Made by a program: the position numbers and the translations under genes. The notes under the pieces are model-generated. The model saw only the letters and a list, made by a program, of their open reading frames with translations. It ran no database searches and was not told the origin of the DNA. A DNA stretch of 64,000 nucleotides. Origin: Bacillota bacterium. GTDB taxonomy: Bacteria; Sysuimicrobiota; Sysuimicrobiia; Sysuimicrobiales; Segetimicrobiaceae. The stretch spans positions 1 through 64,000 of the forward strand of contig JAJPJL010000119.1 in the NCBI GenBank assembly GCA_021324255.1, given 5' to 3'. Below are positions 1-50,650 of this stretch, one piece after another (the first letter of the stretch is position 1; the number at the start of each line of letters is the position of its first letter).

Positions 1-579
1 AACAACGGCGGCGGCAATAATGGCGGTGGTGACAAGGGTGGCGGGAACAACGGCGGCGGCAATAATGGCGGTGGTGACAAGGGTGGCGGGAACAACGGCG
101 GCGGCAACAACGGCGGCGGCAACAACGGCGGCGGCAATAACGGCGGTGGCAACAACGGTGGCGGGAATAACGGCGGCGGCAATAACGGCGGTGGCGGCAA
201 TAACGGGCACGGGGAGCACGGAAACAGCGGCAAGGGAGACGACAACAGCAACGGTCAGGGCGGAGAGAACAACAACGGCGGCGACCACGGCGGCAACAAG
301 GGCGGCGGCAATAGCGGTGGTGGCAACAACGGCGCTGGCAACAAGGGCGGCGGCAATAGCGGTGGTGACAAGGGTGGCGGGAACAACGGCGGCGGCAATA
401 GCGGTGGTGGCAACAACGGTGGTGGCAATAGCGGTAGTGGCAACAAGGGCGGCAACAACAACAACAACAACAACAACAGCAGCAACAACAACGGCGGCGG
501 CAATAGTGGCAAGGGCAACATTGGTGACGGCAACGGCGACGGCGGCAATGGCCACGATCAGGGGAACGGTGGGCACTAG
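1..579 (+). CDS. Gly/Asn-rich low-complexity protein, C-terminal part (5' end outside window)
   Basis: Frame 1 is open from the first base to a TAG at 577-579. It encodes an imperfect tandem repeat of GGGNN units, interrupted by DK, HGEH, NSGKGDD and an eight-residue Asn run near position 460. I chose this frame because differences between repeat units are mostly synonymous here (AAC/AAT, GGC/GGT). In the overlapping frame that reads as Ala/Thr/Val they change the amino acid. Glycine/asparagine repeats of this kind occur in extracellular or cell-surface bacterial proteins, but no domain, signal peptide or anchor is visible in the part seen. The start and any N-terminal domain lie to the left of the window. 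Function unknown. Confidence 0.6.
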   Translation, partial: NNGGGNNGGGDKGGGNNGGGNNGGGDKGGGNNGGGNNGGGNNGGGNNGGGNNGGGNNGGGNNGGGGNNGHGEHGNSGKGDDNSNGQGGENNNGGDHGGNKGGGNSGGGNNGAGNKGGGNSGGDKGGGNNGGGNSGGGNNGGGNSGSGNKGGNNNNNNNNSSNNNGGGNSGKGNIGDGNGDGGNGHDQGNGGH

Positions 580-656
580 GACGCGGTTGCTCGAATCAAG
601 AAGCGCCTGACGCAGACACTACACCATATACGCACACCACTCGCAGCTGAAATCGG

Positions 657-1265: not shown

Positions 1266-1754
1266 GTGCACCGATGGCTCCGGCCCACGCTACGGACCGA
1301 CAGCATCTATGACATCGATGTCGAGGGGCTCGCGGCGCGCGGCATCCGCGGCGTGATCCTGGATCTCGATAACACGATTGTGCCGTGGGGCGCCCATGAG
1401 GCGCCCCAGATGCTTGTGGCGTGGATTCGCCGGGCGCGTGGCGCCGGACTCGCGCTGTGCATCGTGAGTAACAACGGCGGAGACCGGGTGGCCGCGCTCT
1501 CCGGCGTCCTCGGCGTGCCGGCGCTCACCGGCGCCATGAAGCCGCGTCGCCGCGCGTTGCGCCGGGCGCTCGCGCTCATGGGGACGACGGCCGACACCAC
1601 GGCGCTCATCGGCGATCAGCTGTTTACCGACGTGTTGGGGGGAAACCGGCTGGGTCTGCAGACCATTCTGGTCCGGCCCCAGAGCGCTCAGGAGTACCCG
1701 CTGACCCGCCTGGTGCGGATCGTGGAGCGGATCATGTTGCGCGGTGCGCAGTAG
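1266..1754 (+). CDS. yqeG: YqeG family HAD-IIIA phosphatase
   Basis: A 162-residue HAD-superfamily hydrolase. Motif I is LDLDNTIVPW near residue 35 (nucleophile Asp and general acid Asp), motif II is the Ser of IVSNN, and the C-terminal acidic motif is GDQLFTDVLGGN. Size and motifs match the YqeG/GEP4-like subfamily, whose yeast member dephosphorylates phosphatidylglycerophosphate; the bacterial substrate is uncertain. The start is GTG 1266, with a purine-rich stretch (GAGGCGGA) just upstream. It lies between DUF1292 and the M24 peptidase, a grouping also seen in Firmicutes. Confidence 0.8.
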   Translation: MHRWLRPTLRTDSIYDIDVEGLAARGIRGVILDLDNTIVPWGAHEAPQMLVAWIRRARGAGLALCIVSNNGGDRVAALSGVLGVPALTGAMKPRRRALRRALALMGTTADTTALIGDQLFTDVLGGNRLGLQTILVRPQSAQEYPLTRLVRIVERIMLRGAQ

Positions 1755-1819
1755 CGCGACGCCGAACTCGCGGCGACCCGGATGTGCCGTGCAGCGGCGC
1801 AAGCTCCGAGGAGGGAAGG

Positions 1820-2890
1820 ATGAAGGACCATATCGACCGAGCTCGCCGCTATCTCGGGACATCCGGCGTGGATGCCCTGTTGCTCTCGAAGGACGAAAAC
1901 CGGCGATACGTGACCGGGTTTAGCGGTTCCGCCGGCATCGGCGTGGTGACCCGGGACGCGGCGCTCCTGGTCGTCGACTTTCGCTACTATGAGCAGGCCG
2001 CCGAGCAGGCGCCGGGGTGCGAGATCGTCCGGGGCGCGACGGATCTTCCGGGCGCGCTCGCCGAAGCGGTACGGCCGCGTGAGCTGCGCCGGATCGGCTT
2101 CGAAGCGGAGTCCGTGCCGTACGCGCAGGCGGAGCGCCTGCGCGAGAAGCTGCGGCCGGCGGAGTTGGTGCCGCTTGCGGACGTGGACCGCCTGCGTTGG
2201 GTGAAGGACGAGGAGGAAGTCGCCGCGATCGAGCGGGCGGCCAAGATATCGGATGCCGGATTCGCCCACGTCCTCACCGTGCTGCGCCCCGGGATGACGG
2301 AGCGCGACGCGGCGGTGGAGTTCGAGGCGTTCATGCGCCGCGCGGGAGCGGAAAGGCTTTCGTTCGATCTCGTCTTCGCGAGCGGTCCGCGCTCCGCGCT
2401 CCCGCACGGGCGGGCGACCGGTCGCGTCCTGCAGGCCGGCGACCTAGTGACGGTGGACTTCGGACCCGTATGCGACGGGTATACGTCCGACTGTACGCGC
2501 ACGGTTGTGCTCGGACGCGCCGACGAACGGCAACGCGAGATCTACGCGGTCGTGTTGCGGGCGCAGCGCGGCGCGATCGAAGCCGTGCGTGCGGGGGCGT
2601 CGTCCCGGGCGGTCGACCAGGCCGGCCGTGAGATCATCGCCGCCGCCGGGTACGGTGAGGCGTTCGGGCACGGGCTCGGCCACGGGATCGGGCTCGAGAT
2701 CCACGAAGGGCCGGCGCTGTCGCCACGGATGGACGTGCCCTTGGAAGCCGGCATGGTGCTGACGATCGAACCCGGCGTGTACCTGCCGGGGTGGGGCGGC
2801 GTTCGGATCGAGGACGATGTCGTCGTGACCGCGGACGGCTGTCGTGTACTCACGCACGCGCCTAAGGAGCTCATCGAGCTGCCCGTTTGA
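1820..2890 (+). CDS. M24 family Xaa-Pro aminopeptidase/dipeptidase
   Basis: A 356-residue 'pita-bread' metallopeptidase that removes or cleaves residues before proline in the cytoplasm. The N-terminal creatinase-like domain (about 1-130) is followed by the catalytic domain. Visible dinuclear metal ligands are D213 and D224 (VDFGPVCDGYTSD), the His of GHGLGHGIGLEIHEG, and the Glu residues of TIEPGVYLPG and GVRIEDDVVV. The start is ATG 1820, just after GAGGAGGGA; an open extension to 1784 lacks a better site. It lies upstream of efp, as ypdF/yqhT-like peptidase genes do in Firmicutes. Confidence 0.9.
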   Translation: MKDHIDRARRYLGTSGVDALLLSKDENRRYVTGFSGSAGIGVVTRDAALLVVDFRYYEQAAEQAPGCEIVRGATDLPGALAEAVRPRELRRIGFEAESVPYAQAERLREKLRPAELVPLADVDRLRWVKDEEEVAAIERAAKISDAGFAHVLTVLRPGMTERDAAVEFEAFMRRAGAERLSFDLVFASGPRSALPHGRATGRVLQAGDLVTVDFGPVCDGYTSDCTRTVVLGRADERQREIYAVVLRAQRGAIEAVRAGASSRAVDQAGREIIAAAGYGEAFGHGLGHGIGLEIHEGPALSPRMDVPLEAGMVLTIEPGVYLPGWGGVRIEDDVVVTADGCRVLTHAPKELIELPV

Positions 2891-2951
2891 GCAGGTCCGC
2901 CCGTGGTGAGCGGCGGCGCGCGATCCGCCGCCGTCCGCCGCCGGCCGTTGG

Positions 2952-2981
2952 TTGACAACGGCGTCGGGCGGCCGGTACACT
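2952..2981 (+). promoter_or_regulatory. Sigma70/SigA-type promoter of efp
   Basis: TTGACA (2952-2957), an 18-nt spacer and TACACT (2976-2981). Transcription should start near 2988, only about 12 nt before the efp GTG, so the efp mRNA has a very short leader. Confidence 0.65.
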
Positions 2982-2999
2982 CCCGGTGGGTGATGCGGC

Positions 3000-3560
3000 G
3001 TGATCTCGAGCAATGATTTCCGTCCCGGCGTCCACGTGCTCCTCGACGGCGACCTGTACGCCATCATCGAGTCCCAGCACGTCAAGGTTGGCCGGGGGCC
3101 GGCCTACGTAAAGGCCAAGGTCCGCAACACCAAGACGGGCTCCACGACCGAGCGGACGTTCCGAGCGGGCGAGCGGGTGCCGCTCGTCTATCTGGAAAAG
3201 AAAACGATGCAGTACCTGTACACGACCGGCGACGAGTACATCGTCATGGACAAGACCACGTTCGAGCAAATGCCGCTCCCCCGCGCGTTGTTCGGTGATG
3301 CCGTCCGATTTCTGCGCGAGAACACCGATGTCACGGTGGTCTTTCACGAAGAGAAGCCGATCGGCGCAGAGCTGCCGAACTCCGTCGATCTGCGCATCGT
3401 GGAAACCGCACCGGGGATTCGCGGCGACACGGTGAGCGGTGCGACCAAGCCGGCGACCCTGGAGACCGGGGCCGTCGTGCAAATCCCGCTGTTCGTGGAA
3501 ACGGGCGAAGTCGTTCGCGTCGACACCCGCACGGGGTCCTACATCGAGCGCGTCCGCTGA
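3000..3560 (+). CDS. efp: Elongation factor P
   Basis: A 186-residue EF-P, full length for the family, with KOW-like domain I and two OB domains (the C-terminal signature is around GIRGDTVSGATKPATLETG). It binds between the ribosomal P and E sites and relieves stalling at polyproline stretches. GTG 3000 gives the N-terminus MISSNDFRPG, colinear with B. subtilis EF-P. The loop tip that is post-translationally modified in many bacteria reads VKVGRGPA, so the tip residue is Arg32 rather than Lys (see findings). It is transcribed from its own promoter at 2952-2981. Confidence 0.95.
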   Translation: MISSNDFRPGVHVLLDGDLYAIIESQHVKVGRGPAYVKAKVRNTKTGSTTERTFRAGERVPLVYLEKKTMQYLYTTGDEYIVMDKTTFEQMPLPRALFGDAVRFLRENTDVTVVFHEEKPIGAELPNSVDLRIVETAPGIRGDTVSGATKPATLETGAVVQIPLFVETGEVVRVDTRTGSYIERVR

Positions 3561-31997: not shown

Positions 31998-32036
31998 CCG
32001 CGTCCCGGGCGTGACACGGCGCGGAGGGACGTCCCC

Positions 32037-32226
32037 GCGAGGGCCTCGACCGCTCGCGCGGCTCGGCCGCCTCCGGTCGACGCCCGTGTGTGTTGCGCAT
32101 GTTCTATTGCGCGGCGAACAAAGCGGCTACCCGAAAGTTGGTCGGCGTCGGTCGCGTTCTGGTTCACGCCCTGGGCCCGGGAGCGAAGGGCAGGTCCGGC
32201 CGGCCCGAACCCCTGACGGAAGTTCG
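32037..32226 (+). repeat. Intergenic repeat, copy A (possible structured RNA)
   Basis: This stretch is matched by 44212-44412. A 104-nt core starting at GCGCGGCGAACAA (near 32110) aligns without gaps at about 86% identity (15 differences by my count). The strictly kept part includes CCCGGGAGCGAAGGGC, flanked by arms that can pair (GGGCC with GGTCC here, GGACC with GGTCC in copy B). It lies about 80-270 nt upstream of the zinc-ribbon/selA/selB cluster, in the same orientation. It does not match any riboswitch consensus I know. It fills most of the 307-base gap between the PHP gene and 32305. Confidence 0.6.
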
Positions 32227-32304
32227 GCAGTGACGCGCAGGCTGGTGTAATTTGTAGGGTAGACGCGTTGACCGAGATGGATGTGTCCGACCCGGAGGCT
32301 CAGC

Positions 32305-32546: not shown

Positions 32547-33998
32547 ATGCCCGGCGATCCCGAGCGCCCGTCCTTCCGCCGGATCCCTTCCGTGGAGCGG
32601 CTGCTGCAGGGCCTCGATGCCTCGGGGGCGGCGGCGCAGCATCCGCGCCGCCTCGTCGTGGCCTGCGTCCGGGACGCGGTGGAGCGCGCCCGGCGGCGCC
32701 TCGCGGGCGGGTGCGCGCCGGCGGAAGCGGTCGGCGTCGATGCGCTGCTGGCGGACGCGCGAGCGCTGCTCGAGGAGCGCTCCGCACCCAGCCTCGACCG
32801 GGCGGTGAACGCGACGGGAATCGTGATCCATACCAACCTCGGCCGGGCGCCGCTGTGCCGGGACGCGCGGCAGGCGGTCGCCGCCGCGTCCGGGTACGCC
32901 GTGCTGGAGATCGACCGCGCCACGGGCGCCCGGGGATCGCGGCAGGCCCATGTCACCGAGTTGCTGCGCGAGCTTACCGGCGCCGAGGCGGCGTTTGTGG
33001 TCAACAACAACGCCGCCGCGGTGCTGCTCGCCCTGGCCGCGCTGGCCCCGGGCAGAGACGCGCTCGTGTCACGCGGCGAGCTCGTCGAGATCGGCGGGAG
33101 CTTTCGCATGCCGGACGTGATGGCGGCGAGCGGGTGCCGGCTCGTCGAGGTGGGCACGACCAACAAGACGTATCTCGGCGACTACGAGGCGGCGCTCACG
33201 CCTTCGACCGCCCTCCTCGTCAAGGTGCACCGCAGCAATTTCTCGATGCGCGGCTTCGTCCGCGAGGTGCCTCCGCGGGACCTCGCCGCGGTCGGGCGGC
33301 GCGCCGGGGTGCCGGTCTTGTTTGACATGGGCAGCGGCGCACTCGTGGAGCTCGGGGCGCGGGTGCGGTGCGCGTCCGGCCAGGCGGATCTGTCCGCCGC
33401 CCCGACGCTGCAGGCGGCCGTGGCCGCGGGCGCGGACATCGTGACGGCGAGCGGCGACAAGCTCCTCGGCGGGCCGCAGGCCGGCCTGCTGTTGGGACGC
33501 GCGAGCGCGATCGCGAAGGTCCGCGCGCATCCGCTCGCGCGCGCCGTCCGCATCGACAAGCTCGGGCTCGCCGCGCTGGAGGCGACGCTCCGGGTCTACC
33601 GCGATCCTGACCGCGCGTGGGGCGAGATCCCGGTGCTCGAGATGCTGAGCCGCTCCGCCGGGGCGCTGGAGCGCGCCGCGGGGTCGCTCCTGGAGCGTCT
33701 CCACGGGGCGATCCACGGCGCAGCCGCCCTGGACCTGTACCCGACGGTGACGGAAGCGGGGGGTGGAGCGCTGCCCGGGATCGAGCTGGCGTCGTGGGCC
33801 GTGTCGGTGCGGCCGCATCACGGATCCGTGGACGCCTGGGAGCGCCGGCTGCGCCGCCACCGGCCGCCGGTGTTTGCGCGCATCGCGGACGGCCGGCTGC
33901 TGCTCGACCTGCGGACCCTCGGCCCGGAGGATGAGCCCGTGGTCGCCGAGGCCCTCGGGGCGGCGGCGCGCGACCTCGCCGGCACCGCATCCGGGTAA
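32547..33998 (+). CDS. selA: L-seryl-tRNA(Sec) selenium transferase
   Basis: A 483-residue PLP enzyme that converts Ser-tRNA(Sec) to Sec-tRNA(Sec) with selenophosphate. The N-terminal domain begins RRIPSVERLLQ. The core has NATGIVIHTNLGRAPL and AFVVNNNAAAVLLAL. The PLP lysine is K305 in ASGDKLLGGPQAG. Full length for bacterial SelA. The ATG 32547 start has no strong Shine-Dalgarno and may be coupled to the small gene ending 20 nt before. It is followed at 14 nt by selB; tRNA-Sec lies at 37448. Confidence 0.96.
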   Translation: MPGDPERPSFRRIPSVERLLQGLDASGAAAQHPRRLVVACVRDAVERARRRLAGGCAPAEAVGVDALLADARALLEERSAPSLDRAVNATGIVIHTNLGRAPLCRDARQAVAAASGYAVLEIDRATGARGSRQAHVTELLRELTGAEAAFVVNNNAAAVLLALAALAPGRDALVSRGELVEIGGSFRMPDVMAASGCRLVEVGTTNKTYLGDYEAALTPSTALLVKVHRSNFSMRGFVREVPPRDLAAVGRRAGVPVLFDMGSGALVELGARVRCASGQADLSAAPTLQAAVAAGADIVTASGDKLLGGPQAGLLLGRASAIAKVRAHPLARAVRIDKLGLAALEATLRVYRDPDRAWGEIPVLEMLSRSAGALERAAGSLLERLHGAIHGAAALDLYPTVTEAGGGALPGIELASWAVSVRPHHGSVDAWERRLRRHRPPVFARIADGRLLLDLRTLGPEDEPVVAEALGAAARDLAGTASG

Positions 33999-34012: not shown

Positions 34013-35953
34013 ATGCCCGCGCGCCAGCACGCACCCGCCCGCTCCCCCGTGACGCGCTACGCCGTCGTGGGAACGGCCGGCCACATCGATCACGGCAAGA
34101 GCGCGCTCGTGCGCGCCCTGACCGGGACCGACCCGGACCGGCTCGCGGAGGAGCAGCGCCGGGGCATGACGATCGACCTCGGGTTTGCCCACTTCGACCT
34201 GCCGGACGGCGTGCGGGTCGGGATCGTCGACGTGCCCGGGCACGAACGCCTCATCCGTACGATGCTCGCCGGCGCCACGGGCATCGATCTCGTGCTGCTG
34301 GTCGTGGCCGCGGACGAGGGCATCATGCCACAGACGCGTGAGCACCTCGACATCCTGCGGTTCCTGCGGGTGCCCCGCGGCGTCGTCGCGGTCACGAAGA
34401 TGGACCTGGTGGCGGACCCGGAGTGGCTGGCCCTCGTCAAGGATGAGATCGGGGGCCTGGTCCGCGGGACATTCCTGGAGCAGGCGCCGGTGGTGGAGGT
34501 CTCGTCCCGGACGGGCGCCGGGCTGCCGGCGCTGACCGCCGCGATCGCCGACGGGCTTGCCGCAGCCCGCCGGGCCAACGCGGACGCGCCGGCGCGCCTC
34601 CCGGTGGATCGGAGCTTTACGATGGCGGGCTTCGGGACCGTCGTCACAGGGACGCTGTGGTCGGGGCAGGTCCGTACGGGCGACGTGCTGGCGCTGCTGC
34701 CCTCGGGCCGGGAGGTGCGGGTGCGGCAGGTGCAGAGCCACGGCGAGGTCGTGACGGAAGCCGTAGCCGGCCAACGCGCCGCGCTGAACCTCGTGGGCGT
34801 CGGCAAGGACGAGGTCACCCGCGGCGACGTGCTGGCCGCGCCCGGCGCGTACCATCCGTCCGCGGCCGTCGACGTGCGGCTCCGGCTCCTCCCCGATGTC
34901 CCGCCGCTCCGGCACCATGAGCGGGTTCGGCTGTATCTCGGCGCCGACGAGGTGATCGGCCGCGTGCGGCTCCTCGATCGCGACGCGCTGCCGCCGGGCG
35001 GCGAGGCGGCCGCGCAACTCCGGCTCGAGCGGAGCACCGTGGCCGCTCGCGGCGACCCGTTCGTCATCCGCCGGTACTCGCCGATGGCGACCGTGGGCGG
35101 CGGCGAGATCATCGCGGTGGATGCGCCCCTGCGGCGCCGGGGCGCGGCCGCGGCGGCGGCGCTCGTCTCCGCGGCATCCGCCGGCATGGACGTCCGGATG
35201 CGCGAGGCGCTCGGGCGCGCCGGCCGCGGGGGAGCCACCCTGGACGAGCTTGCGCGATCGCTCAACATCACCGTGCCGCGCGCCGCCGAGCTCGTGGAGA
35301 CCCTGCGAGGCGCCGGCGGCGTCTATGGGATCCGCGGGCGGTTCTTCTCCGCGGAGACGGTGGAGCTGCTCCGGCGCGCGATCGTCGCGGCCCTCACGGC
35401 CCATCACGCCGCCGTCCCGTGGCGCGCCGGGATGCCCCGCGAGGAACTCAAGCGTCGCGCGTTCCCAAGCGGTGACGACCGCCTGTACGGCGTCGCGCTG
35501 GACGGGCTCGCGGAGTCCGGCGCGGTCACGGCAGGCCCGGCGTTCGTCCGCCTCACCACGTTTGCGCCGGCCCGGAGCCCCGAGGAGGCGGCCGCCGCGG
35601 ACGCGATCGCCGCCGCCTACCGGCACGGGCGATTTGCCCCGCCGGCCCGCGAGGAGGTGCTCGCGCGCGCGGCGGACCGGGGCGCCGCGGACCGGATGTT
35701 TCAGGCGCTCATCGACGACGGGACGCTCGTCGAGGCGGGCGGGATCGTGTTTCATCGTGACGCGGTCGCGGAGATCGAGGCGCGGGCGGTGGCGCATCTC
35801 GAGCGGCACGGCGAGCTCACCGTGGCGGCGTTGCGCGATCTGCTCGGCAGCAGTCGCAAGTACGTGCTCGCGGCGCTCGAGTGGCTCGACGCGCGCCGCG
35901 TCACGCGGCGGACGGGCGACAAGCGCGTGCTCGTCAAACCGGCGGCGGAGTGA
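34013..35953 (+). CDS. selB: Selenocysteine-specific translation elongation factor SelB
   Basis: A 646-residue GTPase that brings Sec-tRNA(Sec) to UGA codons marked by a SECIS hairpin. EF-Tu-like domains have GTAGHIDHGKSALVRAL (G1), DVPGHERLIRTML (G3) and VTKMDLV (G4). Winged-helix repeats at the C-terminus (for example HLERHGELTVAALRDLLGSSRKYVLAALEWLD) bind the mRNA hairpin. Length is normal. The start is ATG 34013, 14 nt after selA. selA, selB and tRNA-Sec show that the organism makes selenoproteins; selD and a selenoprotein are not in this window. Confidence 0.95.
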   Translation: MPARQHAPARSPVTRYAVVGTAGHIDHGKSALVRALTGTDPDRLAEEQRRGMTIDLGFAHFDLPDGVRVGIVDVPGHERLIRTMLAGATGIDLVLLVVAADEGIMPQTREHLDILRFLRVPRGVVAVTKMDLVADPEWLALVKDEIGGLVRGTFLEQAPVVEVSSRTGAGLPALTAAIADGLAAARRANADAPARLPVDRSFTMAGFGTVVTGTLWSGQVRTGDVLALLPSGREVRVRQVQSHGEVVTEAVAGQRAALNLVGVGKDEVTRGDVLAAPGAYHPSAAVDVRLRLLPDVPPLRHHERVRLYLGADEVIGRVRLLDRDALPPGGEAAAQLRLERSTVAARGDPFVIRRYSPMATVGGGEIIAVDAPLRRRGAAAAAALVSAASAGMDVRMREALGRAGRGGATLDELARSLNITVPRAAELVETLRGAGGVYGIRGRFFSAETVELLRRAIVAALTAHHAAVPWRAGMPREELKRRAFPSGDDRLYGVALDGLAESGAVTAGPAFVRLTTFAPARSPEEAAAADAIAAAYRHGRFAPPAREEVLARAADRGAADRMFQALIDDGTLVEAGGIVFHRDAVAEIEARAVAHLERHGELTVAALRDLLGSSRKYVLAALEWLDARRVTRRTGDKRVLVKPAAE

Positions 35954-37447: not shown

Positions 37448-37542
37448 GGAGGGGCATGGGTCCTGGTGGGTCTCACGGTCTTCAAAACCGTCGGCGGGCC
37501 CTTTGGGCTCGCGGTGGGTTCGATTCCCACACCCCTCCGCCA
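37448..37542 (+). tRNA. selC: tRNA-Sec (anticodon TCA)
   Basis: A 95-nt selenocysteine tRNA with an encoded CCA (37540-37542). The acceptor GGAGGGG pairs with CCCCTCC. The D arm is extended (GGGTCC/GGGTCT, 6 bp with wobbles). The anticodon stem is ACGGT/ACCGT with loop CTTCAAA, anticodon TCA at 37482-37484. A long variable arm follows, then the T arm GTGGG-TTCGATT-CCCAC. The possible eighth acceptor pair is C-A. TAGGAT at 37436-37441 could be its -10, but the -35 is not convincing. It lies downstream of selA-selB. Confidence 0.95.
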
Positions 37543-42601: not shown

Positions 42602-44128
42602 ATGGTGGAGATCGACGGTCACAGTCTGACGCTGGAGCAGGTGGAAGCCGTGGCGCTCGGCGCACCGGCCGCGCTGGCGCCTGCGGCCCGGCGCGCGGTG
42701 GAATGCTCGCGGGCCGTGGTGAGCTCGATCCTCGAGACCGGGCGGCCCGTGTACGGCGTCTCCACCGGGGTCGGCGAGCTGCGCACGGTGACGATCCCCG
42801 CGGATCAGGTCGAGCGCCTGCAACGAAACATCCTGCGCTCGCACGCCGCCGGCGTCGGCATCCCGTTGCCGGATGCCGCGGTGCGCGCGATGATGCTGCT
42901 GCGGGCCAACGCGCTTGCCGGCGGATGCTCCGGCGTGCGGCCCGCCGTCATCGAGACGTTGTTACGGATGCTGGCCACGGGCGTGCACCCGGTCATCCCG
43001 GAACAGGGGTCGCTCGGCGCGAGCGGAGATCTGGCGCCGCTCGCGCACCTGGCGCTCGTCCTGATCGGCGAGGGGGAAGCGATGGTCGGCGGCACGCGGC
43101 TCCCGGGGCGTGAGGCGATGAGGAGGGCCGGCATCGAGCCCCTGGTGCCGGAGGCCAAGGAAGGCATGGCGCTCATCAACGGCACGCAGTTCATGAGCGC
43201 GCTCGGCACGCTGTTCGTGCTCGACGCCGAGCGCCTGGCGGGCCTCGCCGACATCGCGGGCGGGCTATCGCTCGAGGCGCTCCGGGGCACGGATGACGCG
43301 TTTGCCGAGCGCCTGCAAAGCGCGCGTCCTCATCCCGGCCAGATCGAGAGCGCGCGGCATCTTCGCGCATTGCTGCAGGGCAGCTCGCGGATCGTACGGC
43401 GCGATTACCAGCGCGTGCAGGACGCGTACTCCCTTCGGTGCATGCCCCAGGTCCACGGGGCCGTGCGGCAGGCCCTGGCGCATCTGAGGGCCGTGCTCGC
43501 GATCGAGGTCAACAGCGCCACCGACAACCCGCTGGTCTTTGCCGAGGACGGCGCCGTGGTCTCCGGCGGCAACTTTCACGGAGAGCCGCTGGCGCTCGCC
43601 CTGGATTACGCCACCGCGGCCGTCGCGGAGCTGGCCAGCATCAGCGAGCGTCGGATCGAACGCCTCGTGAATCCCTATCTGTCCGGTCTCCCCGCGTTTC
43701 TGACGCCGGACGGCGGCGTGCGTTCCGGGTACATGCTGGCCCAGTACACCGCGGCGGCGCTCGTTTCGGAGAACAAGGTGCTGTCCCATCCGGCCAGCGT
43801 GGACAGCATCCCCACATCGGCAAACCAGGAGGACCACGTCAGCATGGGGGCGCACGCGGCGAGGAAGGCGCTCCAGGTGCTGCGCAACAGCCAGCAGGTG
43901 CTCGCGATCGAGCTCGTGGCGGCATGCCAGGCGGTCGATTTCGGCACGGGCGATCTTGGCGTCGGGACGAGCGCCGCCCACCGCACGGTGCGGGCGCGCG
44001 TGCCGCGTCTCGAGGACGATCGCGTTCTCAGCCGCGACTTTGCGGCGGCGCTGGAGCTGGTCCGCGGCGGTGCGGTGTTGCAAGCGGCGGCGGACGCCGT
44101 TCGCGCCGCGCCGGCACGCACGCCGTGA
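42602..44128 (+). CDS. hutH: Histidine ammonia-lyase
   Basis: A 508-residue lyase that converts L-histidine to urocanate and ammonia, the first step of histidine breakdown. The autocatalytic MIO prosthetic group comes from A140-S141-G142 in [14 protein letters not shown]. Other family segments are [38 protein letters not shown] and [19 protein letters not shown] 42602 lies after the regulated terminator with GGAGG at 42590-42594; the longer frame from 42389 is not coding. No hutU, hutI or hutG follow in this window, so the rest of the pathway must lie elsewhere. Confidence 0.96.
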
Positions 44129-44211
44129 CATGGGGAGGGTTGACGAGCCGAGGCAGCCCTGCCGGACTTGCCTGACGCGGGGTCGGTCTCGGCCCTGAGG
44201 AATCTCATCCG

Positions 44212-44412
44212 GCGAGGGTCCCACCGCGCCTGCGCCGTAGACCGCCTCCGGTCGGCGCCCGCGGTGCATCCGTGAGTGTCGCGCGTTTCGCGTGCGCGGC
44301 GAACAACGCGGTTTCCCGAAATTTGGTGGGCGCCGGTCGCAGTCTGGCTCACGCCGTGGACCCGGGAGCGAAGGGCGGGTCCGGCCGATGCGAACCCGAG
44401 CCGGAGTCCGGC
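44212..44412 (+). repeat. Intergenic repeat, copy B (possible structured RNA)
   Basis: Partner of the repeat at 32037-32226. The 104-nt core begins GCGCGGCGAACAA (near 44296) and aligns without gaps at about 86% identity. GGACCCG and CGGGTCC flank the invariant GGAGCGAAGGG, giving a stable stem; copy A keeps pairing with a G-U. It lies 70-270 nt upstream of the ABC transporter permease, in the same orientation as the genes. It accounts for most of the 356-base gap after hutH. Confidence 0.6.
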
Positions 44413-44484
44413 CATGGCGCCCGAGGAGTCCCCGGACGCAGTCCCGAACGAGTGGCGGGGGTGTCGCGGGAGGCGCGTGCGCGC

Positions 44485-50273: not shown

Positions 50274-50306
50274 GCAGTGACTAGTCTCCTTGCCAGACTC
50301 TACCTA

Positions 50307-50336
50307 ATGTCGTGCATCATTATGTCGTGCATCATT
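50307..50336. repeat. Perfect tandem 15-bp repeat upstream of the MFS pump
   Basis: Two adjacent exact copies of ATGTCGTGCATCATT (50307-50321 and 50322-50336) lie 34 nt upstream of the MFS start on the minus strand, where a repressor would act. The surrounding DNA is less GC-rich than its neighbours. No regulator gene is adjacent. Confidence 0.55.
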
Positions 50337-50650
50337 GCCGAACTCCGGCAAGGGTTCGAACCATATGTCGAACCCGACCCCGCCACGGACGGCACGCTGA
50401 CCCATCGGCGCGGCTGGGTGCCGCGACTGCCCCGCCCGTGGACGCCGCGCCGCGCGGCCCCCCTCGGGCGCGGACGTCGCCCGTCGAGGCGCTGCCCGGA
50501 GGCCCTGGGACGCGGTGCGGGGGGTGAAGCCGGAGGCCGGACCCATCTCATCGGTTAACGACGGAAGGGCGCCCCCGACTCCCGGACACGGGTGGACGCG
50601 GTCACCCCCTGTGGAGAGCCCGGCGCGCAGGGCGGATGGCGTCGGGGTGG
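50337..50650. other. Gap between MFS pump and thyX; no gene seen
   Basis: About 310 GC-rich bases. Open frames on both strands are of low quality and resemble no protein family. No convincing promoter, hairpin with T-run or repeat was found. Confidence 0.4.

Follow-up and report, generated by a model that had tools for sequence, protein, structure and literature searches.

A MITE-like repeat family with inverted ends and CTAG boundaries, often at stop codons, in two related soil bacteria

Two intergenic sites in a 64,000-nucleotide stretch of bacterial DNA (the window) share a conserved sequence, and this raises the question of what kind of element is kept at both. The initial annotation proposed a non-coding RNA or a mobile repeat, with a short coding element as an alternative. 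The reading preferred here, held at a probability of roughly 0.93, is that the two sites are old copies of a non-coding, non-autonomous, MITE-like transposable element. The combination of inverted-repeat ends, CTAG boundaries and empty sites, together with the lack of an intact reading frame or fold, argues for such an element rather than for a riboswitch or a peptide gene.

A dispersed repeat family

A repeat search of the window recovered 113 ungapped nucleotides at 84% identity common to the two sites, which confirms the duplication first noticed, and the true extents of both copies are larger than was then recognized (Table 1). BLAST of a 190-bp query against the second site showed 76% identity from end to end (E = 4e-33). 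Further copies, which the initial annotation had proposed to look for in this genome and its relatives, are numerous. The genome yields 27 matches with a window copy as query and 36 with a hand-made consensus, and a profile built from the core sequence picks up 35 here (G000) and 44 in a congener, the sister genome G001. The window sites are thus members of an interspersed repeat family and not simply a pair. The best-kept copies, which lie at unrelated loci, match the consensus at 91-97% identity.

Table 1. Copies of the repeat and other features located in the window
Feature	Position	Strand	Remarks
Copy 1	32036..32238 (approx.)	+	5'-truncated, long-form subfamily; between a PHP-domain ORF and the zinc-ribbon/selA/selB cluster
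Copy 1, conserved core	32108..32220	+	stretch seen in the initial annotation
Copy 2	44125..44424 (approx.)	+	full long form, ~300 bp; left end at the stop codon of an aromatic amino acid lyase gene; right end CGAG, a decayed form of the CTAG present in the sister genome
Copy 2, conserved core	44293..44405	+	stretch seen in the initial annotation
Solo right-end inverted-repeat fragment, same family (GTGCATCATTGCCGAACTCCGGCAAGGGTTCGA)	50305..50362 (approx.)	-	94% over 36 nt (50327-50362)
selA	32547..33998		
selB	34013..35953		
tRNA-Sec gene	37448..37538	+	RF01852, 74 bits
Direct repeats	2..596		15-nt spacing; 18 offset copies of a 214-nt reference

The hosts of the family are two related soil bacteria with about 35-45 copies each. 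The third congener (G002) gave zero matches to the core profile, and no convincing copy was found among 41 other genomes of the phylum (G002 included), one of which had a single marginal match. The nearest named records with a neighboring selA are two metagenome bins, 'Bacillota bacterium Centralia_MAG_233' and 'Terrabacteria group bacterium ANGP1'; the first is apparently G001 itself, the match coordinates being identical. Judging from the ANGP1 and CSP1-3 names, we take the lineage to be CSP1-3/Sysuimicrobiota. That phylum has been described (PMC11604079), and the repeat family is now documented in this poorly studied, mostly uncultured lineage. The titles and abstracts of the literature on MITEs with CTAG and stop codons revealed nothing similar, and the family appears to be undescribed, though its kind is well known.

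The complete young form is about 217 bp long and lies inside CTAG or YTAG at both ends, with the best-preserved copies starting in CTAGTGC and finishing in GCNCTAG. Its terminal inverted repeats are imperfect (TGC...GGCCGGCCGG / CCGGCCGGC...GCA, with element ends TGCRTCATYGCCGAACTCCGGCAAGGG / TGC.GC.TCTTTGATGTTTGACGAGGG), the arms being only about 60-66% identical, and the young element forms a full-length fold-back hairpin (z = -6.4). Larger sub-forms carry extra internal segments and measure about 262 bp or, in the long form, about 280-300 bp, the left end of the long form lying 280-310 nt from the right end. The short forms (73-141 bp) are internal deletions with little left beyond the two ends. 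Copies also differ in an internal block of 23 nt, which the two window copies and some others retain and the rest lack. A diverged long-form subfamily, found at 1388-1655 of locus L012 and 1382-1655 of locus L022 (G000:C116, C103), has an extra left segment (GGTCTCGGCCCTCATGA...GCCGCCTCCGG) and many further copies in G001.

Empty sites and placement at CTAG

The flanks of young copies were joined and then searched against the sister genome. The sister is uninterrupted at the young insertions C27, C101 and C71, and at C101 and C71 it keeps a single CTAG at the position of the element. A single CTAG in the sister, where this genome has CTAG-element-CTAG, points to duplication of a CTAG target. 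The left flanks of C25 and C127 match up to an intact CTAG, past which the sister diverges. The sister site corresponding to C27 is altered; the copy at C27 has TTAG at both ends, a pair that tentatively favors duplication of 4 bp over duplication of 2 bp (TA).

Both window copies also occupy sites where the sister has no element. At the copy 1 locus, the spacer ahead of the selA cluster is shorter by about 176 bp in the sister. At the copy 2 locus, the flanks align up to 44134 and resume at 44424, a CTAG marking the right boundary, and the place of the element is taken by 1.9 kb that include an additional gene. This gene (L215, G001:C119, approximately 1569-3221 on the minus strand, about 550 aa) has the aromatic amino acid lyase gene on one side and the ABC permease gene on the other, and looks like a thiamine-diphosphate decarboxylase.

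Counted strictly, 31 of 60 copies (15/28 in G000 and 16/32 in G001) have the TAG stop of a neighboring gene inside their terminal CTAG, and there are further near misses. Where the empty site keeps its CTAG, the stop codon was there before the insertion. The GC-rich genome contains few CTAGs: sampled stretches amounting to 299 kb have 65, of which 18 are stop codons, 22 intergenic and 25 coding, with ORFs predicted by a simple codon-score caller rather than a full gene finder. Measured against this background, stop placement of the first 24 copies is enriched over all CTAGs (p = 0.0004); the comparison with non-coding CTAGs gives p = 0.07 for the same number and p = 0.01 for 36 copies, after G001 copies were added. 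Because the enrichment over non-coding CTAGs is only moderate, a preference for CTAG combined with selection against coding insertions may suffice, and the simplest interpretation has a transposase specific for CTAG, with insertions within genes being selected against. The adjoining stop lies at the left end in 20 cases and at the right end in 13, so that the element is nearly free to face either way relative to its neighbor gene.

A transposase supplied in trans, presumably of the DDE type, would recognize both ends and insert the element at CTAG, presumably duplicating the 4-bp target rather than a 2-bp one (TA). Since CTAG often overlaps a TAG stop, such a duplication would leave the stop of the gene intact, and the insertion would therefore do little harm. 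The family would then illustrate neatly how the targeting of a rare tetranucleotide can render insertions nearly harmless.

Hairpin, RNA and peptide readings

A mobile palindrome that ends at stop codons could also have had its transcript co-opted as a 3'-UTR hairpin, acting as a stabilizer or terminator in the manner of ERIC or REP. This is unlikely, even though young copies as RNA would form a very stable full-length hairpin and the ends of the element do lie at stop codons. Some arm positions have changed on both sides between subfamilies with pairing kept, but such paired changes are also expected if one transposase binds both ends: both must suit the same protein, which produces the same two-sided pattern as covariation. 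The fold is lost in old copies, and the 20 to 13 use of the two ends is only a mild bias in orientation. Folding of full-length copies favors the + strand by about 10-28 kcal/mol, but this asymmetry is mostly reproduced by dinucleotide shuffles, and the extra stability of the one strand is thus mostly base composition (z -1.0 to -1.7). Arm mismatches in the consensus are G-U rather than A-C by 8 to 3, too few to conclude from. It is quite improbable that the palindrome selects CTAG stops beyond what the availability of CTAG explains and equips the genes tagged in this way with hairpin 3' UTRs; if true, palindrome insertions would reshape mRNA ends in two species.

The proposal that the two sites encode a structured RNA, a riboswitch or sRNA controlling the selA/selB and ABC-importer operons in cis or in trans, is very improbable. 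Both copies are upstream of operons and their core is conserved, and their shared orientation to the downstream genes had been noted. However, the orientation of the family relative to its neighbors is mixed, so the agreement of two copies is uninformative and best seen as coincidence. The neighbors themselves are unrelated, and the element often adjoins gene 3' ends. There is no Rfam match at gathering or permissive thresholds, the only hit being tRNA-Sec elsewhere in the window, and the folding energy of the window copies is not better than that of shuffled sequence (z 0.0 to 1.4). The initial annotation had suggested a test for covariation; the core consensus fold is weak (-11.6 kcal/mol) with a covariation term of -0.19, and a conserved fold with compensatory changes was not found in window-type copies. 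The arms thought to pair around GGAGCGAAGGG form a stem that is disrupted in most copies, and half of this stem falls within the 23-nt block that many copies lack. In addition, the element is absent from G002 and from nearly all of the host family. Of the original pair of possibilities, the mobile repeat is therefore upheld by the copies, inverted ends, CTAG flanks and empty sites, and the RNA falls for want of an Rfam match and a fold, which removes one false riboswitch candidate.

A short element encoding Arg/Gly/Ser-rich peptides can be dismissed with near certainty: one or more frames are open in the two window copies alike, but 1-nt and 23-nt indels separate the copies, stop codons interrupt most frames, and peptides of this composition arise from a random frame in GC-rich DNA.

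Known small elements and candidate mobilizers

Bacterial MITEs, including RUP of pneumococcus and Correia/NEMIS, have been reviewed along with ERIC (PMC2229807). The MITE-like element described here resembles them in being short, non-coding, multi-copy, dispersed and mostly intergenic, with terminal inverted repeats (albeit imperfect), target-site duplication and empty orthologous sites. It differs in being GC-rich and about 217-300 bp long, with a CTAG target at stop codons. RUP has a partner in IS630-Spn1, whereas no partner transposase was found for the present element; small palindromic mobile sequences (RUP, Correia and ERIC) are mostly without a proven mobilizer (PMC2229807), as is the case here. 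The ERIC or IRU (RU-1) sequences of enterobacteria are likewise imperfect palindromes of 100-200+ bp with no known transposase, and often reside within transcribed non-coding regions (PMC2229807). ERIC is set apart by length and target, being 127 bp long, whereas the element here spans 217-300 bp, is bounded by CTAG and sits at TAG stops. The target duplication of ERIC is TA, and by its length and CTAG bounds the present family does not match ERIC. To our knowledge, the ends and sequence of the element are unrelated to those of any named family.

The search for a mobilizer covered five transposase families, chosen as DDE transposases with compatible targets. Models of the IS701, IS5 and IS1380 types detected no PF13546, PF01609, PF13340 or PF13701 transposase in G000 or G001. 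IS630-type genes are present but lack the ends of this element. No transposase lies next to any of the solo ends inspected, and an autonomous IS with these ends was not found in G000 or G001, both draft assemblies of a kind that may omit IS elements. The partner transposase may be extinct, or absent from the draft assemblies. IS5 elements target YTAR and IS630 elements target TA, often within CTAG. The IS701, IS5 and IS630 families have compatible targets or duplications, but no member with matching ends was seen in G000 or G001. Because IS701 elements duplicate exactly four base pairs (PMC2266710), IS701 stays a plausible mobilizer class. An IS110 transposase gene was also considered as a candidate and rejected. 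At locus L126 (G000:C101:6325-6380), an element copy has its left end fused directly to an IS110-family ORF (1501-2728; PF01548/PF02371); the ORF is apparently truncated at its N terminus, and the fusion was taken as a rearrangement.

A few other features of the window deserve mention. The solo end listed in Table 1 carries a partial local duplication (ATGTCGTGCATCATT ATGTCGTGCATCATT). The selA and selB genes lie close upstream of the tRNA-Sec gene, the three making up a compact selenocysteine cluster. The direct repeats at the start of the window are probably a repetitive coding region.
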